A stretch of 64,000 bases of DNA from IMG/VR virus record IMGVR_UViG_3300042446_002107, positions 1 to 64,000 of that record; one strand, given 5' to 3'. Of the stretch, positions 126 to 20,381 are shown in pieces (position 1 is the first letter of the stretch; each line of letters starts with the position of its first letter). The notes under the pieces are model-generated. The model had not been told where the DNA came from, ran no database searches, and worked only from the letters and a program-made list of their open reading frames with translations. The DNA comes from a virus. The position numbers and the translations under genes were made by a program.

Positions 126-181
126 ATTGTTATCTACTCTGACAGGCAAGGGTCGGTACAAGCCCTTACATGCCAGCATTA

Positions 182-409
182 CTATTTGTTTCCTAGGAGA
201 CTGTTCATGGACACTCCAAGTGCGTCCCCTACAAGAAGTAGGGTCTCAACGCTTGGTGCATAGCGTCCGTTCTCAACACGATTTACAGTTTTTCTGTCCA
301 AGCCTGCACGATTAGCAAGTTCTAATTGTGACCAGCCCATCTTGGTTCTGTATGTTCGTACTGATTCTGAAATGTTTTCCATGGATTGTGTGTTTTTTGT
401 AGTTCCCAT
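182..409 (-). CDS. XRE-family helix-turn-helix regulator
   Basis: A 75-residue protein with one Cro/CI-type helix-turn-helix. The core reads MGWSQLELANRAGLDRKTV then NRVENGRYAPSVETLLLV, with the family's Q-LA-AGL-R-TV and E-G pattern at about residues 24-60. There is no room for a separate oligomerisation or peptidase domain. It follows the Api92-like gene after a 40-base gap that holds element A (435). Start at 409 or at the in-frame ATG at codon 10; neither has a strong ribosome binding site. As the only single-domain repressor-like protein seen in the A-rich arm it is a candidate reader of elements A or B; that is inference. Confidence 0.85.
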   Translation of the reverse strand: MGTTKNTQSMENISESVRTYRTKMGWSQLELANRAGLDRKTVNRVENGRYAPSVETLLLVGDALGVSMNSLLGNK

Positions 410-448
410 TTGGGTTCTCTTTTCTTTTGTGTAGTTATCTACTCTTAT

Positions 449-1195
449 TTAGACTGATGAAATAAACGGCTGTGGCATTTTTCCTTTCTTTTCGCACCGT
501 TTGATGTATGCGAGATGTTTTGGGTATTCGGTCATGACAGTTACAAGTTCGTCATCACAGAGTTCCACTAAGTGATGTTCCCATTCACTAAACGATTCGT
601 ACCAATCTTCCTCGTCCTCGGACAAGTTGGGATTTTCAGGGTCGTTTGCTTTTTTGCATTTTTCGTCAAGTTCAGGCGTGAGCATCTGGGGGTCACGCCC
701 ACCTTCCTCAATGACCTCTCCATTATGAAAGAAAGACCACGCAACAAAGGCGCTGGATTCCTCTGTGGAAACAACTCCGAACATTAGTTGTGGGTACATG
801 GCAGAAATCTTGCAAATTAGACCATCACATGGACTCCACGCAGATTCGTAACGCATGGAAAGGTTTTTCTCCTTAGAGGTTGGGTCGTCTATCTCTACAT
901 TGCATGCGCCCCATTTACTACCCCATGTTGCAACAGCGTCTAAGTATCCATCAAATCCGTCACTTTCGGTACTGAACGCAGTAAATACTTTTTCTACTCC
1001 GTCAGGGGTGGTGGTTTTGACTTCCTTTGACGCCCGAGGGTCAAGTGGTACGAGTTGGTTCAGGTCGTACTCAACGACAACTCGTGATTTGTCTCCCTCA
1101 ACCTTGACATCGGCAACTGTGATGTCGTTGACGAACTTGGCGAGTTCTCTTTTTGTTCCTTTGATGGTCATGTAGTTGTAACACCAGTTAGGCAT
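449..1195 (-). CDS. Api92-like / YubB ferredoxin-fold domain protein
   Basis: A 248-residue protein opening with MPNWCYN, the hallmark start of phage and plasmid proteins carrying the Api92-like (YubB, DUF1281-type) ferredoxin-fold domain. The rest alternates short beta and helical stretches and ends in an acidic segment. Biochemical role unknown. It has its own promoter (1226-1254) and leads a two-gene unit with the XRE regulator. The ribosome binding site is GAAAGAGGAAG just before the ATG. Family from the N-terminus, confident; function open. Confidence 0.75.
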   Translation of the reverse strand: MPNWCYNYMTIKGTKRELAKFVNDITVADVKVEGDKSRVVVEYDLNQLVPLDPRASKEVKTTTPDGVEKVFTAFSTESDGFDGYLDAVATWGSKWGACNVEIDDPTSKEKNLSMRYESAWSPCDGLICKISAMYPQLMFGVVSTEESSAFVAWSFFHNGEVIEEGGRDPQMLTPELDEKCKKANDPENPNLSEDEEDWYESFSEWEHHLVELCDDELVTVMTEYPKHLAYIKRCEKKGKMPQPFISSV

Positions 1196-1225
1196 CTCTT
1201 CCTCTTTCAGTAGGTTTCTTCACAC

Positions 1226-1254
1226 AGCGTACCACCCGTGGCACAGACTTCCCC
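1226..1254 (-). promoter_or_regulatory. Promoter of the Api92-like / XRE unit
   Basis: -35 GGGGAA, 17-base spacer with GTCTGTGCC, -10 TACGCT, ending about 30 bases before the ATG. Element A at 1290-1303 lies about 40 bases further upstream, more distant than usual. Confidence 0.7.
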
Positions 1255-1386
1255 TAGCCCTCTTCCACCACCGTGAATGGGTTGGACAGAGTTATCTACT
1301 CTCTTTCCGTCTCGGCTCGGTTTCGTTTCGTTCTTCGGATTTATCTCTCATCCCCCCCGTTCATCCTGCTCTGCTGTTTCAGCAAG

Positions 1387-1417
1387 AGCCCCGGGACGGA
1401 CCAAGCATGGCGGGGCT
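1387..1417 (-). terminator. GC-rich hairpin ending the upstream unit
   Basis: AGCCCCG pairs with CGGGGCT across a 17-base loop. There is no clear U-run. The same AGCCCCG/CGGGGCT pair recurs at 2921, 3805, 5464, 7361 and 9976, always between genes. Elements A (1438, 1460 inverted pair) and B (near 1339) flank it. Confidence 0.55.
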
Positions 1418-1441
1418 GTTCTCAAAAAGAAAGAAAGTTAT

Positions 1442-1759
1442 CTACTCTGATAGAGAGGCGTAGATAAGTGAGACGCTGACGAACGAGTGTCCCTCGTTGC
1501 TCCTACGTCTCACGAACGAGAGCATCTGCCACATGCTCGGTACATGCATGAACACTGAATCAAGAGACCACCCATACATGTCAAAGTCACATGGCTCCAT
1601 TGGTTCAGGGGCGAATGAGATAACCCTCACTGACGGTGTGCGCTCCCACGACCAGCGAACACGACATTCAGACCCGACCAGTATCAGGTCTCTATGAAAC
1701 AGTGCGTGACGAATGTAGGACATCAAGACAGAGAAATAGATACCGATAGTCGTCCACAT
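1442..1759 (-). CDS. Unidentified protein with a hydrophobic N-terminus
   Basis: A 105-residue ORF. Its ATG follows the stop of the preceding gene by three bases (TAA CTC ATG), with element A supplying that stop, and its own stop is the TAG inside the next element A (TCA GAG TAG). The N-terminus (TTIGIYFSVLMSYI) could be a membrane segment. No family recognised and no Shine-Dalgarno, so translation probably depends on coupling. Confidence 0.6.
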   Translation of the reverse strand: MWTTIGIYFSVLMSYIRHALFHRDLILVGSECRVRWSWERTPSVRVISFAPEPMEPCDFDMYGWSLDSVFMHVPSMWQMLSFVRRRSNEGHSFVSVSLIYASLSE

Positions 1760-1762: not shown

Positions 1763-2023
1763 TTATCTACTCTTACTTGTGGGGAGATAATCCATGGCGG
1801 GTGTCTGTCTGTCTGCTACGGACATTGACGCAACCTTCACCACGAGAAGCGAAAGAGTTTCTAGCAATTTGCGCTCGGACACATCGTGTTCTAAAGCGAC
1901 CCAATTAGCAATACTTTCGTACTCGCTCCAAATAATTTGCAGCGCCTCTATTGCAGTAGTAGCGAGAGTGTAATAATTCTCCCAAATCAACTCTGCCAAT
2001 TCATCCTTAAAAATTACTTCCAT
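1763..2023 (-). CDS. Small helical protein of unknown function
   Basis: An 86-residue, mostly alpha-helical protein, acidic in the first half. Its ATG overlaps the stop of the small zinc-ribbon gene, and its last codons AGT AGA TAA are element A itself. It lies in the unit that starts with the ParA-like gene. No family recognised. Confidence 0.7.
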   Translation of the reverse strand: MEVIFKDELAELIWENYYTLATTAIEALQIIWSEYESIANWVALEHDVSERKLLETLSLLVVKVASMSVADRQTPAMDYLPTSKSR

Positions 2024-2145: not shown

Positions 2146-2160
2146 TTATCTACTCTCTTT

Positions 2161-2751
2161 CTACGGCAACTCATAGGACGGAATGAATCTCTGATTGAAC
2201 AACTCTGCCCACTCCCATTGTGATTCACGATGTCCGTAGAGACCTGCGTCAATGGCACGAGATGTGCGATTGTCAAACTCTACGATGGTGGTGTCCTTCT
2301 GTCTGAGAACCTGACCCACATCTTTCGCTGTTAGAGCGTCCTGTGCGTCTACGATTGCTACTACTGCGTCAGCAGTGTGAGTGGTTTCGAGTGCCTCTGC
2401 TCGCAATGACAGGTATGAGTTGCGAACCACTGCTACACGGAATGGCACATAGTCAAAGTAGGTGTTCTTCTTGCCACCAAGTAGACCGGTGTCAATAACT
2501 ACGAAATCGTAATGAACTCCACGCAGATTGCTCACCTCGGAAAATGGCGCATTCACGATGGTGATGTCCTTGTATGTCTGTTCGCCTGATGACGGAGCCA
2601 GTCCAAGAATGAGCGTGTCATCGTTGTTCGCTGATGTGTCAATGAGCAACACTCGTTCAGGATTGGTCTTGCCCAATGCCAATGCGATTGAGCAGGCTAC
2701 GGTACTTGTGCCTACTCCGCCCTTGCGAGCGCTTACTTCTATTACTTTCAT
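2161..2751 (-). CDS. ParA/CpaE-like P-loop ATPase
   Basis: A 196-residue MinD/ParA-superfamily ATPase. The Walker A is KGGVGTST (residues 10-17): it keeps the superfamily's signature first lysine but has Thr where the usual KGGVGKTT has the P-loop lysine, a form seen in some CpaE-like and phage proteins. LLIDTS and DFVVIDT supply the A' and Walker B motifs. No ParB partner is adjacent, although a ParB-like domain is buried in the polyprotein at 58800-63995. The gene has its own promoter (2791-2819) and a CTGAAAGGGG ribosome binding site. It could segregate an episomal phage, or act in positioning or regulation. Confidence 0.85.
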   Translation of the reverse strand: MKVIEVSARKGGVGTSTVACSIALALGKTNPERVLLIDTSANNDDTLILGLAPSSGEQTYKDITIVNAPFSEVSNLRGVHYDFVVIDTGLLGGKKNTYFDYVPFRVAVVRNSYLSLRAEALETTHTADAVVAIVDAQDALTAKDVGQVLRQKDTTIVEFDNRTSRAIDAGLYGHRESQWEWAELFNQRFIPSYELP

Positions 2752-2790
2752 GAGATACCCCTTTCAGGTATGGCAGTTGTTGCCAAACAC

Positions 2791-2819
2791 AATGTACCAC
2801 GATGAGTACAGACTTCCAA
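2791..2819 (-). promoter_or_regulatory. Promoter of the ParA-like unit
   Basis: -35 TTGGAA, 17 bases (GTCTGTACT inside), -10 TACATT. Element A at 2821-2834 abuts the -35. One of the clearest members of the family. Confidence 0.8.
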
Positions 2820-2834
2820 ATAGTTATCTACTCT

Positions 2835-3137
2835 CATTCTTTCGCAACACAGAGAGACCGTTCTGCCCCCGACTTATCTCTCATCCCCCCGTTGTTCGCT
2901 TTCTCCCCCTTTGAGTGAAAAGCCCCGCTTCGCTAGGTTCCTGCCGGGGCTATCTGCCAAGAGTGCGCCTGTGGGGGAGTGAGAGATAACCGACAGATTG
3001 GTTGGAAACACGGCGAGCTGAAAAGTTATCTACTCTGACGAAAGGCTGGCCGTGTTGGTAAGAGAGTAGATAAGTGAAAGTCCCCGTCAGGGGGGGACTG
3101 ACGGGGACTTCCGATTAGGGGAACTTAGGACTGTGCG
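2835..3137. other. Gene-free stretch holding regulatory modules
   Basis: No convincing ORF. From left: element B (near 2873), hairpin AGCCCCG/CGGGGCT (2921-2951), a second copy of B in the opposite orientation (near 2985), a facing pair of A elements (3026 and 3066) and the strong hairpin at 3078-3110. Confidence 0.75.
3078..3110 (-). terminator. Strong hairpin after the 3138-3608 gene
   Basis: A perfect 13-bp stem, AAGTCCCCGTCAG with CTGACGGGGACTT, 27 bases past the stop codon. Only a weak T-rich tail (TTTCACTT) follows. Confidence 0.75.
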
Positions 3138-3608
3138 CTAGTTGCTCTTGGTTGCGCCTGACTGTACGAACTGCTGGATTGCGTTAGCGAGTGAACCGCT
3201 TGCGCTACCTTCGTCTGTGATTACATCATCAGGCTCATCAGCGAACCGCAACACGCTGGCAACGCTCTGACGGTTAGCGATACAAGACAGACGAACACGA
3301 CGACGCTCTGCGTGTTGTGAAGGTGCTTTGTCAATGTTGCCGTCAGGATTGAGTGGTGCAGCCCAACCTGTCGTGACGATAAGTGTCCAAGCGTATGCGC
3401 TTGCTACCAAGGCGTTGTAGTCATTGTCAAGCAGGTCATACACATCAGCGTGAGACTCAATGAACATGAGTTTCGGCGTGCCTTCGGCTGTGTAATCCAC
3501 ACCGTAAAGGTGTGCGCCTTCCATGACGAACGGAGTTGGCTCGTCTCCCTTTGAGAGTAGGGAGTGTATTTGACTCTCTATCTCTACTGCTATTGCTACT
3601 GTGTCCAT
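3138..3608 (-). CDS. Conserved-type phage protein of unknown function
   Basis: A 156-residue protein. The start MDTVAIAVEIES is chosen because GAAAGGG stands just before it; the longer frame to 3656 runs through the leader. The C-terminal part (HAERRRVRLSC ... LRFADEPDD ... SGSLANAIQQFV) resembles actinophage proteins of no known role, in my recollection. Expressed from 3645-3673 and ended by the hairpin at 3078-3110. Confidence 0.78.
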   Translation of the reverse strand: MDTVAIAVEIESQIHSLLSKGDEPTPFVMEGAHLYGVDYTAEGTPKLMFIESHADVYDLLDNDYNALVASAYAWTLIVTTGWAAPLNPDGNIDKAPSQHAERRRVRLSCIANRQSVASVLRFADEPDDVITDEGSASGSLANAIQQFVQSGATKSN

Positions 3609-3644
3609 TGGGTACCCTTTCATTGGTGTTAGTGGAACACCGTC

Positions 3645-3673
3645 AGCGTACCACACACGGGACAGACTTCCCC
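3645..3673 (-). promoter_or_regulatory. Promoter of the 3138-3608 gene
   Basis: -35 GGGGAA, 17 bases, -10 TACGCT. Element A (3674-3687) is directly upstream. Confidence 0.75.
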
Positions 3674-3687
3674 GAGTTATCTACTCT

Positions 3688-3919
3688 GTTCTTCCACCAC
3701 CGTCATTGTGTTGTGGCGTGGTGACACACTTCCCGTTCACTTGCGCCTCGCCGTACTTATCTCTCGTCTCCCCCGTGTGCGCCTGCTTTGCCCTTTCGGG
3801 CAATAGCCCCGGGCGAACCCAAGCGCAGCGGGGCTGTTCCCCCAAAGCAAGGCAAGAAAAAAGTTATCTACTCTACTCACCCCCGAGAGAGCAAGCAGAG
3901 TAGATAAGTCTCGGGTGAA
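3688..3919. other. Intergenic regulatory module
   Basis: No gene seen. Holds element B (near 3758), the hairpin AGCCCCG/CGGGGCT (3805-3835) preceded by a smaller CCTTTCGGG stem, and facing A elements at 3864 and 3900. It separates the 3920-4237 gene from the 3138-3608 unit. Confidence 0.7.
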
Positions 3920-4237
3920 TTAATCAGATAGGTGGTACTGCCCACCACGCCGTTCGTATTGAGCCGTAGCCTCGGTGATGGTCTCACGGTAATCGCCGTT
4001 CTCCATGTGCCAGCCCTCTGGACGGTCAACGGCGTTCCACACTGCGAACGGGTGGAGCGTGTTGTGTGGCAACAGACAGAGAACCACCCACACGGCGTAG
4101 GCGTCAATATCAGACGGGCGAGATAGCCAGCATGCGAGAATGGTGACAGGGTTACTGCCACTGCTAGGGGTGAACGAGTCACCCACTTTCAGTATGCGCA
4201 TGGGGTATGTCTCGGTAGGTGACTTATCTACTCCCAT
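3920..4237 (-). CDS. Phage protein of unknown function whose start codon lies in element A
   Basis: A 105-residue protein. The first codons ATG GGA GTA GAT AAG are element A, so it begins MGVDK. The ATG lies four bases after the upstream stop (TAA GAAC ATG). The C-terminal VWNAVDRPEGW and ETITEATAQYERRGG look like conserved phage protein sequence, but no function is known to me. Co-transcribed with the DUF3846 gene. Confidence 0.72.
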   Translation of the reverse strand: MGVDKSPTETYPMRILKVGDSFTPSSGSNPVTILACWLSRPSDIDAYAVWVVLCLLPHNTLHPFAVWNAVDRPEGWHMENGDYRETITEATAQYERRGGQYHLSD

Positions 4238-4241
4238 GTTC

Positions 4242-4688
4242 TTACCCTTCCCCGTTGAGCCATGCGTTGATTTGCTCATCGTCCATTGGCACGATGGTAG
4301 GTGCAAAGTCCATTTCGGAAATTGCCTTCGCAAGCATTGCTTGGATTACTTCGCTTTCCGCAATTTCTTTTGCAAAGTCAAAGAAGCGTCCTGATGTGAA
4401 CGCAACGGGCACATCGTGGTTCTCTCCGTCATACTCGCCTTGCTCATTGAGAGAGCCGATAACAACACAGTCACCCACAAGTGGACGCTGAAACAACATG
4501 GACGCCACAGCGTTCAGGGGGAGACCGATAAGCAAACCTTCATCGTGGACATAGCCAACGATTTCCTCGCCTCTTACACAGTCAAACCAACCACCCACGA
4601 TTTCGTGAATGAGTGTGTGACCGTCCTCGGTTGGAATGTCTTGTGTGAATACCTCACCACTAGACCTAATTACTACTGCTGTTGCCAT
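4242..4688 (-). CDS. DUF3846-domain protein
   Basis: A 148-residue protein with the pattern of DUF3846, a small domain common in phages: an IHEIVGGWFDCVR strand-helix early, then YVHDEGLLIGLPLN and the RPLVGDCVVIG stretch (about residues 15-80). The C-terminal third is acidic and helical. Role unknown. The ribosome binding site is GAAAGAGG; promoter at 4722-4750. Confidence 0.8.
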   Translation of the reverse strand: MATAVVIRSSGEVFTQDIPTEDGHTLIHEIVGGWFDCVRGEEIVGYVHDEGLLIGLPLNAVASMLFQRPLVGDCVVIGSLNEQGEYDGENHDVPVAFTSGRFFDFAKEIAESEVIQAMLAKAISEMDFAPTIVPMDDEQINAWLNGEG

Positions 4689-4721
4689 TGCGTACCTCTT
4701 TCGTTTGCGGATGACATGTGA

Positions 4722-4750
4722 AGCGTACCACTCGTAGTACAGACTTTCAC
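4722..4750 (-). promoter_or_regulatory. Promoter of the DUF3846 unit
   Basis: -35 GTGAAA, 17 bases (GTCTGTACT), -10 TACGCT. Element A at 4759-4772 lies nine bases beyond the -35. Confidence 0.7.
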
Positions 4751-4821
4751 AACTTGGACTTATCTACTCTGAACCTGCCGAACCAATGGGGGCTTGCGCC
4801 CCCACTAATTACTCGGCTTGA

Positions 4822-5217: not shown

Positions 5218-5276
5218 TGGATACCCTTTCACTGGTAGATGAACGCCACACGCCGTGTTGCTTGTGGCTTGCCACA

Positions 5277-5305
5277 AGCATACACCCCTTGCCACAGACT
5301 TTCCA
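5277..5305 (-). promoter_or_regulatory. Promoter of the 4822-5217 gene
   Basis: -35 TGGAAA, 17 bases, -10 TATGCT. Element A at 5322-5335. An imperfect inverted repeat around CTTGTGGC/GCCACAAG (5260-5280) overlaps the -10 and could be a further operator. Confidence 0.6.
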
Positions 5306-5335
5306 ACATTGCTTGACAGAAAGTTATCTACTCTC

Positions 5336-5599
5336 ATTCCGAGGCTTCTTCCACCACCGTGAATTGGTTGTGGTGATGTCAGGGATTGTCTTTCCGTTCG
5401 CCCTCACGAGCAGGACTTATCTCTCACCACCCCCGTCGTCTCCGCTTTTCCCTTTTTGGGAAAAGCCCCGGGGACAACCGAGCGCAGCGGGGCTATTCCC
5501 CCGAACGAACAAAAAAAGAGAGGGGGGAGTTATCTACTCTCTAATAGAAAGGGGTATGAAAGTAGATAACTCCGAACAGGCTCGCCCTGCGTGGTGGTG
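5336..5599. other. Intergenic regulatory module
   Basis: No gene seen. Holds element B (near 5419), the hairpin AGCCCCG/CGGGGCT (5464-5494) and facing A elements (5530 and 5562). Confidence 0.7.
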
Positions 5600-5887
5600 C
5601 TAGGGGCGAGGCGAGGTGATGGGCAGGTGAACGGTCTGCCATGTGTCTAGTTGTGTGCCGTAGATTGACACGAGCCTGCTGATGACTTCCTGAATGTCAC
5701 CTGAACAATGACGGTGAGCAATGTTGTACAGAGTGTCCCCACTTTTGATATCCACGATGTGCGTGTCACAAGAGAATGAAGGCTGTTGTATTACTTCATT
5801 CAGTCCCCACCAGCAAGCACCTAGCAAGGTGATGACTAACGGGATAGAGATTATGAAACGGCGTAGAGCGTACTTATCTACTCTCAT
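5600..5887 (-). CDS. Membrane-anchored LysM protein
   Basis: A 95-residue protein: a short cytoplasmic start (MRVDKYALRR), one membrane helix (FIISIPLVITLLGACWW, about residues 12-28), then an external LysM domain (THIVDIKSGDTLYNIAHRHC ... WQTVHLP, about 45-88) that should bind peptidoglycan. The start codon lies inside element A and overlaps the upstream stop as ATGA. The longer frame to 5920 is rejected. A role at the host envelope (exclusion, or helping lysis) is plausible. Confidence 0.8.
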   Translation of the reverse strand: MRVDKYALRRFIISIPLVITLLGACWWGLNEVIQQPSFSCDTHIVDIKSGDTLYNIAHRHCSGDIQEVISRLVSIYGTQLDTWQTVHLPITSPRP

Positions 5888-6348
5888 GCTGTTACCTCTT
5901 TGATTGCGATTGTGTCCCAAGCGTGACGGCTTAGAGGTTCAGTCGTGAGTAGGTGTGTCGTTTCATCTCTGACGATTGTGCGAACTTCCAAATAGTCGTG
6001 ATGAATAATGTACACATAATCACACCACGCAAAATCTGTATCTGTATCCGTGAACAATGCGTAAGGGTCGTCTAGTTCTATGTCTGTGTGTGCGTATCCG
6101 TAGCCCTCTATTAGTGCTTTGTCCTCATAGAGATTAGGCTCGCCACTTTTTGCCATTGGTTCTACTTGTGACCATGAAGCCGTATCGGTGATAAGTGTCT
6201 TGATGACCTTATCTACTCCATCTCTTGCTACTAATTCGCCTAATACATAAGTCATTCGCTCTGGGTAATTGTCCCAATGTGAATACCTGCCTTGCCATGT
6301 GCCAGCACTCTCTGATGTTGAGTGTGCCACGATTGCTCGTGTTGCCAT
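5884..6348 (-). CDS. Conserved phage protein of unknown function
   Basis: A 154-residue protein. The N-terminus, with GRYSHWDNYPE, matches a type I associate with actinophages, whose function is not known to me. Aromatic and acidic throughout. Element A (6209) lies inside the coding sequence, read as GVDK. Start supported by GAAAGGGG nine bases upstream; promoter 6379-6407. Confidence 0.78.
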   Translation of the reverse strand: MATRAIVAHSTSESAGTWQGRYSHWDNYPERMTYVLGELVARDGVDKVIKTLITDTASWSQVEPMAKSGEPNLYEDKALIEGYGYAHTDIELDDPYALFTDTDTDFAWCDYVYIIHHDYLEVRTIVRDETTHLLTTEPLSRHAWDTIAIKEVTA

Positions 6349-6378
6349 TTGTGTCCCCTTTCATTTGTGAACACCCGT

Positions 6379-6407
6379 ATCGTACCACCACTAGGACAGA
6401 CTTGCCA
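6379..6407 (-). promoter_or_regulatory. Promoter of the 5884-6348 / LysM unit
   Basis: -35 TGGCAA, 17 bases, -10 TACGAT, with element A at 6409-6422 immediately upstream. Confidence 0.78.
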
Positions 6408-6541
6408 AAGTTATCTACTCTCAATAGTTCCCACCCGACAAACCCCACAGGAGTACGGTTATCTCTCAAACCCCCCGTGTACGACTTTCGCCCCATTCGG
6501 GGAAAAGCCCCGCTATCAGGGACAAAAATAAGTGGTGAATA

Positions 6542-6715
6542 ATGACAATTTATTTATGGGATTACGAGAAGCGATTGGCTCGAATAGAGCAACTCACTCG
6601 CGAGGCGAACAGGCTCACTACTCTTGTGCGTGAAGCCAATGACGAAACGCGAGCCATTCTTGCTAGGTCTAAGTTCGGGCTCGTTTCGGACTTATCTACT
6701 CCCATTACAGAGTAG
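6542..6715 (+). CDS. 57-residue coiled-coil protein
   Basis: ATG at 6542, stop TAG inside a variant of element A (ACAGAGTAG). The sequence (YEKRLARIEQLTREANRLTT) is a strongly helical heptad pattern, so a small coiled coil. A ribosome-binding-site-like AAGTGGTGA precedes it. It is convergent with the next gene, and a terminator with a T-run on this strand follows at once (6721-6762), which supports a real gene. Function unknown. Confidence 0.65.
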   Translation: MTIYLWDYEKRLARIEQLTREANRLTTLVREANDETRAILARSKFGLVSDLSTPITE

Positions 6716-6720
6716 ATACA

Positions 6721-6762: not shown

Positions 6763-6795
6763 AGGGGTGAAGCACTCTTATGGAGTGAAAGGGGG

Positions 6796-7242: not shown

Positions 7243-7284
7243 TTTTCTCTCCTGCCAGCAGGGTTGGTAGTTGCTGACCTGTGA

Positions 7285-7313: not shown

Positions 7314-7360
7314 AACTTATCCCTCACCCCCCCGTTTATTCTTTTTAGTTTATGGAGATA

Positions 7361-7397
7361 GCCCCGGCTGTTCGCCGACAATGGCGGGGCTGTTCCC
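7361..7397 (-). terminator. GC-rich hairpin
   Basis: AGCCCCGGCTG opposite the CGGGGCTGTT region; same type as the hairpin at 3805-3835. Its other side faces the plus-strand unit starting near 7460, where element B (near 7430) and element A (7466) follow. Confidence 0.5.
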
Positions 7398-7522
7398 CAA
7401 AAGGCGAGCCGAAGGCGCATGGGGGTGATGAGAGATAACTCCATCTCCTTGCTGGGTCAATGAGAGTAGATAACTTTGCTGGGCGTTTGACATTCCGACA
7501 CGCAACGCCCCTTGTAATAAGT

Positions 7523-7825: not shown

Positions 7826-7873
7826 ACAGCGTTATCTACTCCCATCACGCTAATGAGAGTAGATAACTTCGGG

Positions 7874-8901: not shown

Positions 8902-9067
8902 TAGTTATCTACTCTGTTTGCTTGCGAGTTATCTACTCTCAAAGTCAGCCCCATTGCCCCCGTCTGAACCCCCTCGCAATCACACTTATCTCTCCTCTCC
9001 CCCATTTCGCCAGCACTCCCATTCCCAACGGGGCTCTGCCTCCTGCTTGCCACCCCTTTGGGGTGAA

Positions 9068-9117: not shown

Positions 9118-9143
9118 ATGAACGGGAGCGGGTCGTGGATTAT

Positions 9144-9737
9144 CTACTCGGCGTAATCCAGGCGGTACTGCTCGTCCTGTTCTTCTTGCGTCATGTGCTC
9201 CAGGCTGATGGAGCGGTGGCCACCTTCGCACTGCCAACCAACCCGTACGCCGTTGCGGATGACGTCTGAGACCTTCGCACCGCAATCAACGATTGCGTAG
9301 CGGTTGCCTGACTCTGCAGCTCGTTCGCCAAGGCCTTCCCAGTAGTCGAACTCGTATTGGGCGTTCTCTTCATCCGAGAGCTCGGGAATCGGAGTGAACG
9401 GGAATGCTGCTTCCCAATTCTTTTCCACGAGCCAACCACAGCGATTCGCTTCTTCGCGGTCACGGGCGTTCGCTTCCAGGGCTGCATTGCGCTCGCGGTC
9501 ACCTTCCTCAATTATCCAGCCGTAGACATCGTTACGAACCTCGTTACGCGCTTTGACTGCCTTGACCGCTTGCTTTGGTGTGAGCGCCTTCTCTCCGTCC
9601 CAACCGAAAGCTGCTACGAGCTCCTCGTCTGAGAAGCACTCGGCCAGCTCGGACTCAAAGAATGTCTGTGGGTCTGTGTAAGCAGGTAGCGCCTTGATGG
9701 CCTCTACGACTGCTGTGTGATTTGGGTGGGTGTTCAT
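9144..9737 (-). CDS. Acidic phage protein of unknown function
   Basis: A 197-residue protein rich in Glu, Ala and aromatic residues. The start MNTHPNH is set by CAAGGAGC upstream; the longer frame runs into the promoter. The stop TAG is the one in element A (GCC GAG TAG). The C-terminal KVSDVIRNGVRVGWQCEGGHR may bind a metal through its Cys and His. Unlike the neighbours its promoter has no adjacent element A. Confidence 0.75.
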   Translation of the reverse strand: MNTHPNHTAVVEAIKALPAYTDPQTFFESELAECFSDEELVAAFGWDGEKALTPKQAVKAVKARNEVRNDVYGWIIEEGDRERNAALEANARDREEANRCGWLVEKNWEAAFPFTPIPELSDEENAQYEFDYWEGLGERAAESGNRYAIVDCGAKVSDVIRNGVRVGWQCEGGHRSISLEHMTQEEQDEQYRLDYAE

Positions 9738-9800: not shown

Positions 9801-10075
9801 ATTTCCTTCTAAAACCCTTTGCCTGTAACGAGTGGCGTTTAGCAACCCGTCAGTTTCGTTACAAACACAAACACGCGTTATCTACTCTTGTTGCCTGGCT
9901 TTTTGCCAGCTCCGCGCCCAGCTCCCTGGTTATCTCTCAAACCCCCGTCCGCGGCAAGTCCAGCGCAGAAAACGGAGCCCCGCTCCGCCCCGACTGTTGC
10001 GGGGCTATCGGATTCCCTATCCATACGAGACTTTTCTCGCATGGACGGGAGACGATGCCGGGGAGTTATCTACTC
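9801..10075. other. Intergenic regulatory module
   Basis: No gene seen. Holds A elements (9878 and 10066), element B (near 9931) and the hairpin AGCCCCG/CGGGGCT (9976-10006). Confidence 0.7.
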
Positions 10076-10477: not shown

Positions 10478-10664
10478 AAGTTATCTACTCTGTTGCTTGC
10501 GCTCAACGTTGCCTGTGAATAATTTCAATCGGACATATCTCTCGTCTCCCCCTCCGTGACTTTCTCCCTTCGGTCGAAAGCCCCGCTGGTGCGCGCGATG
10601 CGAAAAAAAGGGTATGATTCTCACAGCCAGCGCGAAGCTGTCGCGTAACGTCAAGGAGAAAACT

Positions 10665-11191: not shown

Positions 11192-11370
11192 ATACTCTCG
11201 CAGCGCTACTTAGACAGAGCGCAATGTTTCATTTATTGATGAGCTTGTTTGCCGGATACATGGGGTTGATTACTAATTCAGATTTCCTGGCAACAATTGT
11301 TATTGCTACCGGTGCGTTCTGTTCCCTCAACGCGCTACATCTCGCGCGCCTACAAGGATTAATAGAGTAG
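11164..11370 (+). CDS. Two-helix membrane protein
   Basis: A 68-residue protein with two hydrophobic segments (FHLLMSLFAGYMGLI and FLATIVIATGAFCSL). The start at 11164 overlaps the previous gene by 28 bases; a longer frame from 11089 overlaps by 103 and is less likely. Stop TAG belongs to element A (ATA GAG TAG). A holin is possible but the lysin is 11 kb away. Confidence 0.65.
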   Translation: MAQSLLEGLDTLAALLRQSAMFHLLMSLFAGYMGLITNSDFLATIVIATGAFCSLNALHLARLQGLIE

Positions 11371-11470
11371 ATAAGTAAATTCGCCTTTTTATCGGGGCTC
11401 CCAACACTTCCAGGCCAAGTAGCGGACATTGCACGGGGGAGTGAGAGATAACTTGAGAGTAGATAACTTT

Positions 11471-12004: not shown

Positions 12005-12153
12005 AAGAAACAACTACGAGTCTTATCAAAGAAATGCTGACAAGTCACGAGAATGTTATTTGCCTAGAATGTTTGCGATTATTTGACCTACTGAACGAGG
12101 ACGAAGCGAACGAATGGTTTTATGGCCATGATTGTGAAACTGTTTCAGAGTAG
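12001..12153 (+). CDS. 50-residue cysteine-containing protein
   Basis: Starts with GTG overlapping the previous TGA (GTGA). Cysteines CLEC and a later HDC suggest a small metal site. The stop TAG is in element A (TCA GAG TAG). Last gene of its unit. Confidence 0.68.
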   Translation: MKETTTSLIKEMLTSHENVICLECLRLFDLLNEDEANEWFYGHDCETVSE

Positions 12154-12184
12154 ATAACTTTCACCCCCGACTCTCACCCTCATT

Positions 12185-12233: not shown

Positions 12234-12278
12234 ATCACTTAAACCAGCAACTACGCGCGGGGATGATGAGAGATAAGT

Positions 12279-12663: not shown

Positions 12664-12678
12664 GAGAGTAGATAACCC

Positions 12679-12897: not shown

Positions 12898-12943
12898 GAC
12901 GCTCATAAATCTTTTATTAGAGAGAGTAGATAACTCCACAAAG

Positions 12944-12993: not shown

Positions 12994-13029
12994 ACAGAAG
13001 ATGGGGGTGGTGGGAAGAGTAGATAAGTT

Positions 13030-13335: not shown

Positions 13336-13380
13336 AACGCCCCACAAGAGTTATCTACTCTCTTGTGGGGCGTTCTTTTT
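13336..13380 (+). terminator. Rho-independent terminator carrying element A in its loop
   Basis: A perfect 15-bp stem (AACGCCCCACAAGAG with CTCTTGTGGGGCGTT) followed by CTTTTT. The nine-base loop plus the top of the stem is exactly element A (GAGTTATCTACTC). The protein that binds A could therefore influence termination. Confidence 0.88.
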
Positions 13381-13494
13381 GATTAATGAGTTATCTACTC
13401 TCAATAGTTTGGCCACCAACATTGCAAAAGCGCTGCAATCCGAGTTATCTCTCACTCCCCCAGCCTCAACTTTCCCCGAAGGGGAAAGCCCCGC

Positions 13495-13632: not shown

Positions 13633-13689
13633 GCTCTATTTTCTCACAATTTCTAAATTAGATGGGGTAGCGAGAGATAAGTCAGAGTT

Positions 13690-13890: not shown

Positions 13891-13957
13891 GTTGATGGAC
13901 CTTTCGTAGAGTAGATAAGGCATCCTAGCGCGAGGCCTAACTAAAATCTCAATAGTT

Positions 13958-14045: not shown

Positions 14046-15995
14046 GTGAGCCCTGTTGGTTTCTACTATGATGAACCCATGAGGTTGTACTTAGATAAAA
14101 GCGAGATTGTGCTGGATTTTCCATATGACGCACAACAGGTGTCGGAATTAAAGCTAATAAAAGGCTCGCGTTGGGATAAACAGACAAAGCTCTGGAAGGT
14201 TCCTGTTACGTCCCTGGAGGCGGCTCGAGATTTCGCCATAAAGCATGACTTCAATGTAACTATCGACGTCCTCACGTTTAACGCCCCTAAAATCAAAACA
14301 GGAGCAGCAAAAGTCTCGCTCGAAGACGAAATGATTTCTATCCGTGTTCCGTATGAGCGCGTTGTTGTCAAAGCTGTAAAGCAGATACCCGCAGTTTCGT
14401 GGAATGCAGATAAACATTGTTGGCAGGCACCCGTATCATCCGTTCTTAACACGATTGAGTGGGCAGAAAAGTTTGATGTAGTAGTAGACCCTGCTGTGGC
14501 AGCACTGTCAGACCAGGTAACGGCGCGAATGAACGAGTTCGTTGAGGCCTCACGGGCAACCGAAGCAGAAGTTGACATCGTAGGCCTACAGGGAGAGCTT
14601 CTTCCCTATCAGCGTGCCGGAGTTGTGTATGCAGCACGCGCTCGACGTACGTTTATCGCAGACGACATGGGGTTGGGTAAGACTCTCCAGTCGATAGCGA
14701 CCCTCGAATATGTTACGGACTCGTATCCGGCCGTAGTTGTTTGTCCACCAAGCTTGGTCCTCAACTGGGTAACAGAATGGAACCGGTGGCTGCCTAATCG
14801 AAAGGTTGTGCCAGTAACTAATCGCAAGGACTTCCCCGAACGCGGCTCGTATGACGTAGTTGTTGTTGGTTACAGCAATATTGCTCACTGGGAAAAGCGC
14901 CTAACTGGGCATCGTTCTTACATCTTCGACGAAAGTCACTACGCAAAGACGCCAACAGCACAGAGAACGAAGGCAGCAGTAAAGATGGCCAAGTCTGCTC
15001 ACAAAGAGGGTCTCGTATTGTGTCTCACTGGCACGCCGGTAACCAATCGTCCAAACGAATACGCTTCTCAATTGGAAATACTGGGAAGACTTAAAGACTT
15101 TGGCGGCCTATGGGGTTTTTATCGCCGCTACTGTGCTGCCTATCAGGACAACTTCGGGCAATGGAACATCACCGGTCACTCGCATCTCGACGAACTGAAC
15201 GAACGCCTCCGAGGAACGTGCTACATAAGAAGGACGAAAGACCAGGTGCTGTCAGAGCTCCCTCCCGTAATGCACAGCAAACTGCTGGTAGAGGGAAGCT
15301 CTGCTGCAATGAAAGAATACAAAAAAGCCGAAACAGACATCTTGTTGTACATCGCAGAACGAGCACGTCAACTCGCTCTCGAACAAGGAAAGCCATCGTA
15401 CGGCGCTGCCATACACGCAATGATTAAAGCAGAGGCGAACGAACACCTGGTTCGACTGTCTGTACTCCGCAAGCTCGCTGCTAAAGCAAAAATGGAAGTC
15501 GTAGAAGAGTGGATAAACGCCCGCATAGATAACGGCAAGAAGGTTGTTGTTGCTGCTCACCATCGAGATATTGTCGATGAGCTTGCTCGCAAGTATGGCA
15601 ACCTTCGCATACAAGGCGGAATGTCTGTTGAGGAAGTCGAAGAGAGTAAGCGCAGATTTCAGACAGAAGATGTCGAAAGCGCACCCGTAATCGTTTTATC
15701 AATTCAGGCCGCAAAGACGGGACACACACTCACAGCAGCAGAGGAGTGTTTATTCGTGGAACTCCCGTGGACACCCGCTGACGTGGACCAGACTTACAGT
15801 AGATTGCACAGAATTGGACAGAAAGGCAGCGTAACGGCAACATACATGCTCGCTGCTGGAACCATAGACGAAGACATTTACGAGATTATCCAAAAGAAAC
15901 GTTCAGTGGTCAATGCTGCCGTTGACGGTGGGGAAGTAGATAACTCTGATTTTTCTACTCAGATGATTCTTAGCTTGCTAGATAAGCTTTCTTAA
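14046..15995 (+). CDS. SNF2-family helicase with N-terminal HARP-like region
   Basis: A 649-residue superfamily 2 ATPase. Residues 1-190 hold two similar beta-alpha segments (KGSRWDKQTKLWKVPV and PAVSWNADKHCWQAPV) like the HARP repeats of SMARCAL1-type annealing helicases. Walker A DDMGLGKT is near 207-214, the DESH box at 295-298, motif III LTGTPV follows, and RLHRIGQ (586-592) is the SNF2 motif VI. Likely remodels or anneals forked DNA in phage replication or repair. GTG 14046 is used; ATG 14079 (MRLYLDK) is an equally good start and neither has a ribosome binding site. Element A (15936) lies in the last codons. Confidence 0.9.
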   Translation: MSPVGFYYDEPMRLYLDKSEIVLDFPYDAQQVSELKLIKGSRWDKQTKLWKVPVTSLEAARDFAIKHDFNVTIDVLTFNAPKIKTGAAKVSLEDEMISIRVPYERVVVKAVKQIPAVSWNADKHCWQAPVSSVLNTIEWAEKFDVVVDPAVAALSDQVTARMNEFVEASRATEAEVDIVGLQGELLPYQRAGVVYAARARRTFIADDMGLGKTLQSIATLEYVTDSYPAVVVCPPSLVLNWVTEWNRWLPNRKVVPVTNRKDFPERGSYDVVVVGYSNIAHWEKRLTGHRSYIFDESHYAKTPTAQRTKAAVKMAKSAHKEGLVLCLTGTPVTNRPNEYASQLEILGRLKDFGGLWGFYRRYCAAYQDNFGQWNITGHSHLDELNERLRGTCYIRRTKDQVLSELPPVMHSKLLVEGSSAAMKEYKKAETDILLYIAERARQLALEQGKPSYGAAIHAMIKAEANEHLVRLSVLRKLAAKAKMEVVEEWINARIDNGKKVVVAAHHRDIVDELARKYGNLRIQGGMSVEEVEESKRRFQTEDVESAPVIVLSIQAAKTGHTLTAAEECLFVELPWTPADVDQTYSRLHRIGQKGSVTATYMLAAGTIDEDIYEIIQKKRSVVNAAVDGGEVDNSDFSTQMILSLLDKLS

Positions 15996-16482: not shown

Positions 16483-17511
16483 TTAGGATACCCCTGACAA
16501 TAGATAATCCTGAGCCTTTACTTTTGCTCGTGTCACCCACGAGTTGTTACTCATAGAAGCGAGTGCTCGCTCGGTAGGTGTTGCTTCGCGATAGTGGTCG
16601 AGATACTCACCGATTGCGTTGACGAGAGACCAGCCGTTGTACCCGTAGTTCTTTGCGTTGTTGTCGTTTGCGTAAATTGCGCGTACCAATGATGTTACTT
16701 CTTTGTGGTTTGTTTCTTGACGTGCTGTTGCGTCTTTGCTTATCGGGAATACTTGGTTCAGTGTCTTGTCAAGTATTTGAGAAGAAGCAGGAACATTTAT
16801 TGACAGCAACTTTTCTGCTGTAAGCGTGAACTCGCGAGCCCATTCGGTTGAGATATTGAGAACTTCGTTCGCTTGCTCCATTGCTCTATCTGCATTGCGT
16901 GTGTGACGCGCAGTAAAGACTCGCTTCGCTGACGAAACACCGGCAATCACTGTGTTTTTACATACGGCACGAATACTCGTGTTCGCAAAGGTAATCGCTG
17001 TTTTGCCGTCATGCCCGTTGTGTACGAGTAGATAACGTTCAATCGAGTCATTGATTCCTGCTGGGTCGATTATTAGCGCACCCATGTCAATAGATGCAAA
17101 GAATTCACATCCGTCTCTCAGGACTCCGCATGTATCAACAACTGCATCCCCATCCGAAGCACCAACTATGTCGAGGGCGTAATTGAGACATTCCCGATTC
17201 TGCTGCACCACATAGCGAGTACCCACTGTTGCTAGGCCGTTAAACGACCCGTCTGTGTTCACCCGTACTGTTGCTCTGCTGTCTGGTACAAGAATTGTGG
17301 TTCCGTCCGGTTGACGAATTGGCTCCCCGTCGTCGTCACATACGGCTACCCGTGTGGTTACTACGTCGAAATCTGCCTGTGCTGCAGCAAGCATTGCTTC
17401 TGCCGTTTGTAGCCCTCTCATGGGCTGCCCAAGCTTGTGCCATGGAATCTGTCGGTCCGCATACGCCATGCGTGCTGTACCGTCTTTGTTGATTTCTATC
17501 TGATGAGCCAT
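16483..17511 (-). CDS. DUF932 phage/plasmid-like protein
   Basis: A 342-residue protein of the DUF932 (TIGR03299) family found in phages and plasmids: N-terminal PWHKLGQPMRG, central YVVQQNRECLNYA and the GHDGKTAITFANTSIRAVC segment are typical. Function unproved; a link to DNA metabolism or anti-restriction has been proposed for relatives. The start MAHQIEI follows GAGACGGAGACGG; the longer frame to 17619 is leader. Element A (17028) lies inside the gene in the sense opposite to translation. Confidence 0.85.
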   Translation of the reverse strand: MAHQIEINKDGTARMAYADRQIPWHKLGQPMRGLQTAEAMLAAAQADFDVVTTRVAVCDDDGEPIRQPDGTTILVPDSRATVRVNTDGSFNGLATVGTRYVVQQNRECLNYALDIVGASDGDAVVDTCGVLRDGCEFFASIDMGALIIDPAGINDSIERYLLVHNGHDGKTAITFANTSIRAVCKNTVIAGVSSAKRVFTARHTRNADRAMEQANEVLNISTEWAREFTLTAEKLLSINVPASSQILDKTLNQVFPISKDATARQETNHKEVTSLVRAIYANDNNAKNYGYNGWSLVNAIGEYLDHYREATPTERALASMSNNSWVTRAKVKAQDYLLSGVS

Positions 17512-17684
17512 AGCCGTCTCCGTCTCTGTTTTCTTATAGATAAATCTATCTGAAAGATGCCCACTTCTAGTGCAACAGTTATTATCGGGGCTCTCCCCTT
17601 TTGGGGAGCGCACGCACACACGGGGGTGTGAGAGATAACTCGCTGGTTTGAGCGAAGTGGCGCACTAACAGAGTAGATAACTTT

Positions 17685-17742: not shown

Positions 17743-18141
17743 ATGAACCTAGAGCAAGCACTTCTGCTAGTTTCCGAGAGCATCAACGCACACCTACACA
17801 TGGAGCGCCTGATGGCGTCCGATGTAAGCGCAAGCCGTCAGGCGATGCAAGACCAAGCCCGTGACACATGGGACGCACAGGACTACAAGGACGCAACCGA
17901 GGGTGGCTGTGGCTTCCCATGGGAATCCGACGAGGAGAACGAATGGACGAGCGTCATCTCACGAGAGACGACCTTCGCCCTGATGCACATCGCAGTGAAC
18001 ATGGTCATGGCTCTCGTCCCTGAGGAATGGACGGAAGCAACCCGTGAGGACTGGGTAGCGTTCCTAGACCAAGACTGCACGCTTGACTCAGACGCCGTGG
18101 CGCAGTTCATGCATGGATGGGACGGGGAGTTCACCTACTGA
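17743..18141 (+). CDS. Acidic helical phage protein, unknown
   Basis: A 132-residue acidic protein with a CTGAAAGGGG ribosome binding site (ACTGAAAGGGG). Regular helices and Trp-rich segments (EEWTEATREDWVAFL). No family recognised. Followed by the hairpin at 18157-18196. Confidence 0.78.
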   Translation: MNLEQALLLVSESINAHLHMERLMASDVSASRQAMQDQARDTWDAQDYKDATEGGCGFPWESDEENEWTSVISRETTFALMHIAVNMVMALVPEEWTEATREDWVAFLDQDCTLDSDAVAQFMHGWDGEFTY

Positions 18142-18254: not shown

Positions 18255-18345
18255 ATCACTCAAACCTGCTGACGTCAGGAACATGATGGGGATGATGAGA
18301 GATAAATCGGAATTATTTGACGCGCGTACACAGAGTAGATAACTT

Positions 18346-18380: not shown

Positions 18381-19583
18381 ATGAGACAAGTACCTACAGC
18401 ATCACTAGCCCATAGCCTGCATACCGATTATCTGCAATACCGAGAGAGCCACCCAACGATGGACAGGCTCTTGCACCTCGGATACTTTCGCGCCATGTGG
18501 GCAGATAGCGATACATCTATTGTGACCCGTGAAACATTGAAGAGGGAAGCAGAAAGAGGCGCAGTCCATCATGAGGTACATCGCGCACTAGACGACACAA
18601 TCATCGCGCTCGGTGACACCGTGTTTCTTACTGATGACCTGCGTGAGTTGGTCAAGACAGCAGAAGCAACAATGCCTGATGAAGTTTTATTTGAGACCGA
18701 CATTTTTACCCCGTGTGGATTTATTGTGATGGAAACCCCACTGCACAAAACCGTACAGTCACTCATAAAAGTTGAAGATTTTGATGAAGTATTTGCGCTT
18801 GCGAAAAAGTACGGCGCAATAATAAGCGGAACACGCAACGATAATGAACCCAATGAAGACGGCAATTATTTAGGCACAGAGAATTGGGAAGTGCAAGCGT
18901 TTGCGTGGGCTGACGTGGACGCCGTAACACCCGAAGCACTTTTAGAAATAGAGAGACGGTTCGGCAAGGACAGTAATGAATATGATTTCGCTAAAAATGT
19001 TTCTAAGAACTCAGAAAAAGACAACGCTATTCAGGTTCGTGTTTTTGGAACTCTCGTATCAACTACTGTCAATGGACTAACGGTAGAAGTTCCACAACTA
19101 CACATTGCTCCGTTACGACTAATGGACATGTACGCGTTTTTCTATGGTGAAGATGGAATGGAAATAGAACGCAAAGCAAGTGGAGTAGATAACTTTTCAG
19201 AGAACGAATTGAACGAATCGTCATGGGAACGAAGCAGAGAGGTGCGTCGTTTTCTTGTTGCTCTGTTTCGCTTGATGGATGAATATGTTGATGTGGAAAC
19301 AACCGCGCTACCCCGTGCTTTCGGGAGACGCGCTACGCGTGGTGGTCGTAAGGGTGATGCAAAAAGTGTCACCACACTTTCATTGCGTCGCGCTCTGTAT
19401 GACGAGACAGATGGAACGGGAGCAAAGATAACGCTTGCTCATTTAGTCCGTGGTCACTGGCGTAATCAGTGGTACCCATCACGCAAGACCCATCGTGCAA
19501 AATGGATACAGGCTCATCGTCGCGGTGGAAACATCACAGACGAAGTAACAGAGCGCCCACGCATTATCAAGGTAGACCGATAG
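18381..19583 (+). CDS. Large orphan, actinobacterial plasmid/phage type
   Basis: A 400-residue protein. The C-terminal HLVRGHWRNQWYPS then HRAKWIQAHRRG is a segment I recognise from actinobacterial phage and plasmid proteins of unknown function. The N-terminal part is helical, the middle beta-rich (IQVRVFGTLVSTTVNG). The start is ATG 18381 because the promoter places transcription there; a GTG two codons earlier overlaps the -10. Element A (19185) is inside, read as GVDNF. Confidence 0.78.
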   Translation: MRQVPTASLAHSLHTDYLQYRESHPTMDRLLHLGYFRAMWADSDTSIVTRETLKREAERGAVHHEVHRALDDTIIALGDTVFLTDDLRELVKTAEATMPDEVLFETDIFTPCGFIVMETPLHKTVQSLIKVEDFDEVFALAKKYGAIISGTRNDNEPNEDGNYLGTENWEVQAFAWADVDAVTPEALLEIERRFGKDSNEYDFAKNVSKNSEKDNAIQVRVFGTLVSTTVNGLTVEVPQLHIAPLRLMDMYAFFYGEDGMEIERKASGVDNFSENELNESSWERSREVRRFLVALFRLMDEYVDVETTALPRAFGRRATRGGRKGDAKSVTTLSLRRALYDETDGTGAKITLAHLVRGHWRNQWYPSRKTHRAKWIQAHRRGGNITDEVTERPRIIKVDR

Positions 19584-19591
19584 GAACGCAA

Positions 19592-19652
19592 AAGCGCCGT
19601 GCCGATACTTATCTACTCTCATAGGTAAGTGCCGACACGACGCTTACGTCGT
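19592..19652 (+). terminator. Imperfect hairpin with element A at its top
   Basis: AAGCGCCGTG opposes CACGACGCTT, and ACTTATC opposes GGTAAGT higher in the stem, with TCTACTCTCATA as the loop region. Element A (19609) again sits in a hairpin between convergent genes. A nested CACGACG/CGTCGTG stem overlaps the end. Pairing is imperfect. Confidence 0.5.
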
Positions 19653-19665
19653 GTACCGAATTTGT

Positions 19666-19989
19666 TTACTTGCTCTGTGAGTTACGCGCACTGTATGGAT
19701 ACGAAGGGTGCGTCCGTCGTGCATTGTGGCGCATGCCTTTGATTTCTCCGTATGCCCAAACACTAAGCAATGTTCCCGTCACAGTACCCGTGACGGTCAA
19801 GAACAAACCAGCGAAAAGGTCGTAGGCGGTATGGCTCCGATGTGAGAGCGATGCGAGATACAGACCAAGCGCGGTGAACACCCATGGCGTTCCTGCAAGA
19901 AGTTTGTAAATCAGTGTCGGATAATTTTCTGTAAGCCAGTTGGTTGCCTGTGCTTCTACTCGGTCTAGGTGGTTGATGATGCTTGTCAT
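19666..19989 (-). CDS. Two-helix membrane protein
   Basis: A 107-residue protein with hydrophobic segments TPWVFTALGLYLASL and LFAGLFLTVTGTVTGTLL and a basic tail. The GAAAGGGAATC ribosome binding site sets the start. Holin-like size, but far from the lysin; function unknown. Confidence 0.72.
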   Translation of the reverse strand: MTSIINHLDRVEAQATNWLTENYPTLIYKLLAGTPWVFTALGLYLASLSHRSHTAYDLFAGLFLTVTGTVTGTLLSVWAYGEIKGMRHNARRTHPSYPYSARNSQSK

Positions 19990-20022
19990 GGTGATTCCCT
20001 TTCGGTTGGTGGTGACTTACGA

Positions 20023-20051
20023 ACTGTACCACTCACAGGACAAACTATCAA
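20023..20051 (-). promoter_or_regulatory. Promoter with element B only
   Basis: -35 TTGATA, 17 bases, -10 TACAGT. Element B variant (GAGATAA after five G, 20053-20072) is adjacent; no A element. Confidence 0.7.
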
Positions 20052-20120
20052 GGATTATCTCTTACTCCCCCACATTGAGAGCAGTGATGGTGGTGAGAGC
20101 CCCGGGTTTGTGACGGTTAT

Positions 20121-20381
20121 CTACTCTGTGTCAGTATCGCCACGTAAGTAGTTGGCACGCATTACTTCGGTAGTGGCTTCTCCGGTTTGGTCAAGTGTCG
20201 CGATGTCGTAGATGCAACCACAGCGATAGCAGAGGTATGAATGACCATCCCAAGAACCGTTAGCAACGGGTTCTACCATCTCTCCTGATGGCAGACATGC
20301 GTAGAAACCATCAATGTCCGGTTCGTTACCGCATCCACATACAAGCCAGTCGGCTACTGTTCTATCGAGATTGAGTGTCAT
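20121..20381 (-). CDS. Cysteine-rich, probably zinc-binding protein
   Basis: An 86-residue protein with CGC near residue 15 and CYRCGC near 51. Overlaps the stop of the upstream gene by four bases. Ends two bases before an A element (20117). Unknown function. Confidence 0.7.
   Translation of the reverse strand: MTLNLDRTVADWLVCGCGNEPDIDGFYACLPSGEMVEPVANGSWDGHSYLCYRCGCIYDIATLDQTGEATTEVMRANYLRGDTDTE

Follow-up and report, generated by a model that had tools for sequence, protein, structure and literature searches.

The repressors of cluster A mycobacteriophages recognise asymmetric 13-mers, both at a promoter and at transcription-oriented sites known as stoperators, with a consensus that varies by subcluster; repressor binding at the promoter and a block to elongation at the oriented stoperators have both been described (PMC6550527, PMC9283540). 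Cluster K phages carry another asymmetric 13-bp repeat, the SAS/ESAS element, which is Shine-Dalgarno-like and lies 3-7 bp before start codons (PMC3203893). We analyzed the first 64 kb (the window) of the virus record IMGVR_UViG_3300042446_002107, which comprises 92,297 bases and of which the further 28 kb were also scanned. The window contains an array of an asymmetric 13-bp word, AGAGTAGATAACT, of which we found no description in the open-access literature.

The array resembles the stoperators of phages such as L5 and Bxb1 in that the word is asymmetric and about 13 bp long, occurs in at least 20-30 copies (47 in the window and 43-119 exact core copies per related contig), is mostly intergenic and in one orientation relative to transcription, is found at promoters in some cases and elsewhere in most (here judged by position), and has a distinct consensus in related phages. 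By contrast, the 20-30 copies of cluster A are spread genome-wide, whereas the present sites, about 45-120 in number, are concentrated in a single region of genomes of 145-170 kb, bracket terminators, skip promoter-leader segments in lineages I-III (defined below), and have as companion a sister half-site that favours a certain distance from a hairpin. The sequences also differ. No homologue of the cluster A immunity repressor was recognised in the part of the gene set that was compared, and searches of 12 records for the recombinase domains PF00589 and PF07508 gave no match; nine of these records measure 134-170 kb, and some are incomplete. Compared with the temperate integrase/parABS trait of cluster A, ParA is present in only some lineages of the array phages. 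An earlier inspection of the window's letters (the sequence-only reading) had pointed to stoperators; the likeness extends to asymmetry, orientation, intergenic position, copies at -35 boxes and lineage-specific consensus, but not to genome-wide spread. In our judgement the array would work in the manner of cluster A stoperators, but it is not filed in that family because the genome-wide distribution is lacking, no integrase was found and no homologous repressor was recognised. With the SAS element it shares an asymmetric 13-bp repeat, mostly in one orientation and limited to the non-structural part of the genome; most window sites, however, lie upstream of promoters or at gene ends. DNA uptake sequence dialects of bacteria are likewise scattered short words, which vary by lineage and often form inverted pairs at gene ends. 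The present sites are similar in all these respects but follow the direction of transcription, and we know of no uptake machinery in phages. As in the protein roadblocks to RNA polymerase treated in a review (PMC10310618), a DNA-bound protein would halt elongation, with the difference that a region-wide punctuation is deduced here from sequence.

The core of the word, GTAGATAA, occurs in 47 exact copies (18 on the + strand, 29 on the - strand; Table 1) between positions 130 and 20124, and the rest of the record, within the window and beyond it, has none. In 60 first-order Markov simulations of the first 20.2 kb, the core came up 0.4 times on average and never more than twice, and the commonest 8-mer of any kind did not exceed 8 copies. 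The 11-mer AGTAGATAACT has 27 matches and its reversed-pattern control 0, while the 13-mer is present in the array region in 24 exact copies, 38 at up to one mismatch and 44 at up to two. The core letters are invariant by construction, as the search used the exact core; the 5' flank is AGA (A in 38, G in 45 and A in 46 of the 47 copies), and the 3' flank is C or G followed by T. The exact scan bears out the 47 copies of the sequence-only reading, and the few copies it had placed inside genes amount to four cores. Its restriction of the motif to the left arm holds within the record, but related contigs continue the array past window position 1, so that the apparent limit reflects a broken contig end. 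The reading had also overlooked a second, related word, GAGAGATAA, with 15 exact copies and one variant, all within window 1-18.4 kb.

Relatives in IMG/VR were retrieved by means of a DNA pattern and of three proteins, namely the ribonucleotide reductase, an AAA protein and one that is MarR-like. The related contigs measure 145-170 kb, are also rich in sites, as a scan of relatives suggested by the sequence-only reading revealed, and carry the array mainly in one region of small genes, which spans about 40 kb in G008, G015 and G024. In G016 it is found at both contig ends, as would be the case for a contig opened elsewhere in the genome. By this comparison, the window record represents a piece of a larger type of phage and holds part of the array. 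The small genes of the array region (window 2161-9737 against 108-118 kb of G008) are reordered, and the rest of the genome is largely syntenic. Three further records, G003, G009 and G010, were rejected as site bearers, their matches being due to chance and their dominant repeat being different.

Within each genome, nearly all copies are spelled with one word, and this word differs between lineages: AGAGTAGATAACT in lineage I (the window, G001, G002, G004 and G005), AGTAGATAAGTC in II (G008), GGTGTAGGTAAGTC in III (G015 and G016), GGTAGATAAGTC in IV (G024), AATAGATAAGTC in V (L251/G046), ACTAGATAAGT in VI (L255 and others) and CTAATAGATAACT in VII (L270/G048 and others). More distant loci have further words, among them AAGGATAATGTAA in L264 and GAATAAAGATAGC in L274. 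When G015 is aligned with G008 (76% identity over the aligned DNA), a type-II site stands opposite 39 of the 45 aligned type-III sites, as in the pair AGGAGTAGATAAGTCT and AGGTGTAGGTAAGTCC. In the reverse direction, a type-III site is found opposite 39 of 67 type-II sites, and several others face the sister word. Such concerted, lineage-specific switching is what a sequence-specific factor acting in trans should leave behind, and we regard it as the strongest new evidence. Still more distant relatives, L287 and L281/L283, have lower-copy, partly palindromic words (AGAATATTCT; GATATC-containing), which suggests a different binding mode.

Genes contain fewer sites than expected in every one of 10 records (p<1e-11), according to approximate calls from a simple gene caller written for this analysis. 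Between co-directional genes, 75-86% of the sites point with transcription (p<=1e-3 in each of the 10 records; 29 with and 5 opposed in the window). Promoters were recognised by a sequence pattern chosen from the window, AAG[TC][CT]TG...GGTA, and an operator role is judged from position only. A site in the same direction lies within 60 bp upstream of 11 of the 13 window promoters, in agreement with the sequence-only reading that copies upstream of -35 boxes point with transcription. Between 6 and 43 bp separate these sites from the AAGTCTG box, most often 7-8 bp. This modal distance, which places the site against the presumed -35, holds in lineages I-III; the sites of lineage IV continue straight into the promoter box and overlap the -35 position. 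Pooling G004, G008, G015 and G024 (lineages I-IV), 45 of 70 promoters have such a site within 60 bp, against 16% expected (p=4e-20). The promoter-plus-leader stretches of the same four genomes contain 9 sites against 24.2 expected (p=4e-4), with 0 against 6.3 in G004, 0 against 5.2 in G008 and 2 against 7.5 in G015. Other copies lie on or shortly past stop codons: among 49 genes of the G008 region, the stop codon falls inside a site in 9, and a site starts within about 40 nt past the stop in 10 more.

Every copy of the sister word has four or more consecutive G ahead of it, the last of them a few bases away (GGGG-N3/4-GAGAGATAA). Upstream of the word stands an invariant GCCCCG...CGGGGC hairpin, the sister site being located about 38 nt past it. 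Counting hairpins that have a sister word within 120 nt, the distance is 29-48 nt in 45 of 46 cases, mostly 35-41, in G000, G004, G008 and G015 (lineages I-III): six of seven at 37-39 nt in G000, eight of ten at 35-39 nt in G004, 32-48 nt in G008, and 35-44 nt in G015 with one at 79 nt. The sister word, GAGAGATAA in lineage I, GTAGTAGATAA or GTGGTAGATAA in II and GGCAGGTA or AGCAGGTA in III, follows the main word from lineage to lineage, down to the A-to-G change seen in III, and the 3' half is common to both words, as if one protein reads both.

The array, the positions and orientation of its copies, their preferred geometries and the concerted switching are features of the DNA itself. From these we infer that a protein binds the sites, that this protein is phage-encoded, and that binding represses or blocks transcription rather than activating it; we assign a probability of about 0.5 to the reading that such a protein keeps promoters repressed and halts RNA polymerase at the borders of genes. 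The 13-bp word would then be the binding site of a sequence-specific protein, and copies adjoining the -35 box (or overlapping it in one lineage) would act as operators. Copies past stop codons, around terminator hairpins and between genes would halt RNA polymerase in one direction and so keep transcription from running on from one of the region's many small units into the next. The sister word past the hairpin would be read by the same protein through the common 3' half and help termination. The protein may serve to turn off early genes, or to insulate them, in the lytic cycle. More tentatively, and with less than even odds, the array may constitute an insulation system in phages with no detected integrase, in which one fast-evolving protein marks both borders of almost all small transcription units over tens of kb, the sister site makes the hairpin a protein-assisted terminator, and lineages switch the word set together with the protein.

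The XRE protein proposed as a binder by the sequence-only reading is unlikely to set specificity, because its putative recognition helix, RKTVNRIEN (with T/I and V/I variants), barely changes while the words differ. A 162-aa winged-helix protein encoded beside AAA/VWA genes was rejected, since its helix (GFSYQTTL or GFSYPTTL) is conserved in lineages with different words; a MarR-like protein of 150 aa is conserved across such lineages as well. In 27 of 27 loci, the MarR-like gene is followed immediately downstream by a frame of the kind designated P157 (G008 88254-88727; L123:8254-8727, beside the conserved MarR-like L123:8743-9195); a copy from lineage I lies at L135:3106-3630 (-). P157 is 25-37% identical between most lineage pairs and 52-61% identical among G008, G015 and G016; its MarR-like neighbour is 58-83% identical to the G008 copy. 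The predicted fold of P157 comprises a winged-helix domain and a long helical tail (mean pLDDT, the predicted local distance difference test score, 84.1) and weakly resembles MarR-family folds (best E about 1e-3). It alone among the helix-turn-helix (HTH) proteins compared varies in its putative recognition helix. This hypervariable protein is a weak and rather doubtful candidate for the site-specific factor. Neither P157 nor the 162-aa protein has a PHROG match, and a search with the P157 profile among solved chains found no phage repressor. The window's own record yielded no P157, whose gene would presumably lie beyond the ends of this incomplete contig, and a search for a protein that sets the two lineage-III phages apart from lineage II gave nothing convincing.

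Several observations weigh against repression and blocking by a phage-encoded protein. A position adjoining the -35 is also the classical place of an activator, and 14-25% of the sites between co-directional genes oppose transcription. Lineage IV has no depletion in promoter-plus-leader stretches (7 sites against 5.2 expected), and with the main core as search word only 11 of 20 hairpins of its phage G024 have a site at 30-41 nt (ten at 38-41), nine being farther away. The identities of whole P157 proteins do not track the site type, and no DNA-binding protein is tied to the word by covariation. Because no integrase domain was found in the records, which may be incomplete, a lysogenic role is unsupported, which speaks against simple prophage silencing. 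The promoter and hairpin patterns were picked after inspection of the data, and the genomes are incomplete and, being related, do not give independent statistics.

The site may instead be that of an activator, a phage protein beside the -35 that recruits RNA polymerase to the small-gene promoters, with the other copies spare or serving unrecognised promoters. The oriented sites upstream of 11 of 13 window promoters, their modal distance and the leaders mostly without sites in lineages I-III would fit this option of the sequence-only reading, which keeps some standing, but the variable spacing, the overlap with the -35 in lineage IV, the promoters that have no site, and the many sites past stops or bracketing hairpins with no promoter recognised downstream oppose such a general function, and we consider it unlikely. 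Operators at the -35 and blocks at boundaries would account for all site classes with a single protein, as in cluster A phages. Somewhat less likely still is a word that acts in transcripts, through antitermination, processing or stability near 3' ends and terminators. An RNA element would be consistent with an orientation that tracks transcription, with sites past stop codons and ahead of hairpins, and with inverted pairs that could form stems; yet sites adjoining the -35 or past terminators fall outside the transcript of the adjacent promoter, and the 5' leaders of lineages I-III are mostly devoid of sites. Consensus folding of the RNA backs only the invariant hairpin, and without covariation, and at the Rfam gathering threshold no family matches the element, the only hits being two tRNAs, both outside the array region.

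Binding by a host protein is improbable: phages with 76-79% DNA identity in their aligned parts use different words, for which a phage-encoded partner is the easier explanation. Partition or DNA-organising sites for the ParA-like protein, the centromere option of the sequence-only reading, would agree with the presence of homologues in phages of lineages I-IV. This option is weakened to the point of being very hard to sustain, as no homologue was found at E<=1e-4 in G016 (III), G046, G047 and G048 (V-VII), all of them rich in sites, and as orientation and position of the sites track transcription units. Equally remote are recombination sites that move genes as cassettes. Several genes are indeed reordered between G000 and G008, and most genes in that region have sites on either side, but only 2 of 17 indel breakpoints lie within 25 bp of a site, no excess over the 24-35% expected for intergenic positions.

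Table 1. Coordinates of site cores, sister sites, composite hairpin elements and two neighbouring genes in the window.
Feature	Position	Strand	Context
Site core GTAGATAA	130..137	-	adjoins promoter box downstream in XRE gene direction, 8 bp to box
Site core	435..442	-	between XRE gene and gene 449-1195
Site core	1292..1299	-	~41 bp upstream of promoter box
Site core	1438..1445	-	21 bp ahead of terminator hairpin
Site core	1460..1467	+	inverted partner of 1438
Site core	1763..1770	-	end of gene 1763-2023
Site core	2146..2153	-	directly after ParA gene
Site core	2824..2831	-	adjoins promoter of ParA gene
Site core	3026..3033	-	intergenic
Site core	3066..3073	+	inverted partner of 3026
Site core	3677..3684	-	adjoins promoter
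Site core	3864..3871	-	29 bp ahead of terminator hairpin
Site core	3900..3907	+	inverted partner of 3864
Site core	4224..4231	-	past stop of gene 4242-4688
Site core	4760..4767	-	13 bp upstream of promoter box
Site core	5324..5331	-	~20 bp upstream of promoter-like box
Site core	5530..5537	-	36 bp ahead of terminator hairpin
Site core	5562..5569	+	inverted partner of 5530
Site core	5874..5881	-	gene junction, stop/start overlap
Site core	6209..6216	-	within gene 5884-6348
Site core	6411..6418	-	adjoins promoter
Site core	6692..6699	-	intergenic
Site core	7466..7473	+	downstream of hairpin element
Site core	7832..7839	-	gene end region
Site core	7859..7866	+	inverted partner of 7832
Site core	8905..8912	-	adjoins promoter
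Site core	8929..8936	-	tandem with 8905
Site core	9140..9147	-	end of gene 9144-9737
Site core	9878..9885	-	downstream of hairpin element
Site core	10066..10073	-	past stop of 10076-10420, ahead of hairpin
Site core	10481..10488	-	adjoins promoter
Site core	11367..11374	+	intergenic
Site core	11459..11466	+	adjoins promoter
Site core	12150..12157	+	internal TAG is stop of ORF (open reading frame) 11941-12153
Site core	12668..12675	+	between genes 12337-12663 and 12679-12897
Site core	12926..12933	+	past stop of 12679-12897
Site core	13019..13026	+	adjoins promoter
Site core	13351..13358	-	loop of long perfect terminator-like hairpin GCCCCACAAGAG...CTCTTGTGGGGC, window 13349-13400
Site core	13391..13398	-	intergenic
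Site core	13911..13918	+	intergenic by present gene calls
Site core	15936..15943	+	within 3' end of SNF2-like helicase gene 14079-15995
Site core	17028..17035	+	within gene 16483-17511, antisense
Site core	17673..17680	+	adjoins promoter of 17743-18141
Site core	18335..18342	+	adjoins promoter
Site core	19185..19192	+	within gene 18495-19583
Site core	19609..19616	-	intergenic
Site core	20117..20124	-	end of gene 20121-20381
Sister site	1341..1349	-	
Sister site	2874..2882	-	
Sister site	2981..2989	+	
Sister site	3757..3765	-	
Sister site	5417..5425	-	
Sister site	6459..6467	-	
Sister site, variant GAGGGATAA	7317..7325	-	
Sister site	7430..7438	+	
Sister site	8986..8994	-	
Sister site	9930..9938	-	
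Sister site	11443..11451	+	
Sister site	12268..12276	+	directly ahead of promoter
Sister site	13445..13453	-	
Sister site	13672..13680	+	
Sister site	17630..17638	+	
Sister site	18297..18305	+	
Composite element	1338..1429	-	AGCCCCG..CGGGGCT hairpin, ~38 nt, G-run, sister site
Composite element	2871..2963	-	
Composite element	2909..2992	+	hairpin common with 2871-2963
Composite element	3754..3847	-	
Composite element	5414..5506	-	
Composite element	7348..7441	+	
Composite element	9927..10018	-	
XRE/HTH_3 protein	182..409	-	Pfam HTH_3 3e-15; sites on both sides; putative recognition helix nearly invariant across site lineages
ParA-like ATPase	2161..2751	-	homologue not in all site-bearing lineages

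The source is probably a large uncultured phage with an actinobacterium as host. Two WhiB-type proteins suggest such a host, and a related terminase on a short contig of an Acidimicrobiia metagenome-assembled genome (MAG) lends it weak support; among bacterial genome contigs, related terminases were found on only two MAG contigs (28.6 and 8.3 kb), from Phycisphaerae and Acidimicrobiia bins. The closest public terminases, those of Gordonia phages among them, are 43-45% identical. No close relative was found in the public phage records searched, and phage Gray has no comparable dispersed word. Elsewhere in the record, a frame of 3009 aa (window 32604-41633, -) combines GNAT acetyltransferase and RNase_T exonuclease domains with long pentapeptide repeats, and other giant frames encode 2389 aa (record 58800-65969) and 2916 aa (67747-76497). 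Four adjoining genes at window 23897-27320 (-) resemble a dTDP-rhamnose set (RmlD, B, C, A) by sequence motifs. The ribonucleotide reductase (window 46773-48698, +) is 48% identical to its closest public phage relative, and the window includes a tRNA-Met (CAT; 27914-27990, -) and a tRNA-Arg (TCT; 50396-50470, +).

If the proposed reading is correct, the stoperator principle would extend beyond the cluster A mycobacteriophages to large uncultured phages, with a copy number several-fold that of stoperators and a new link to terminators. The lineages could then supply orthogonal directional transcription blocks or insulators. At least seven lineages with different words would form a comparative set for the joint change of specificity of a regulator and dozens of its sites.

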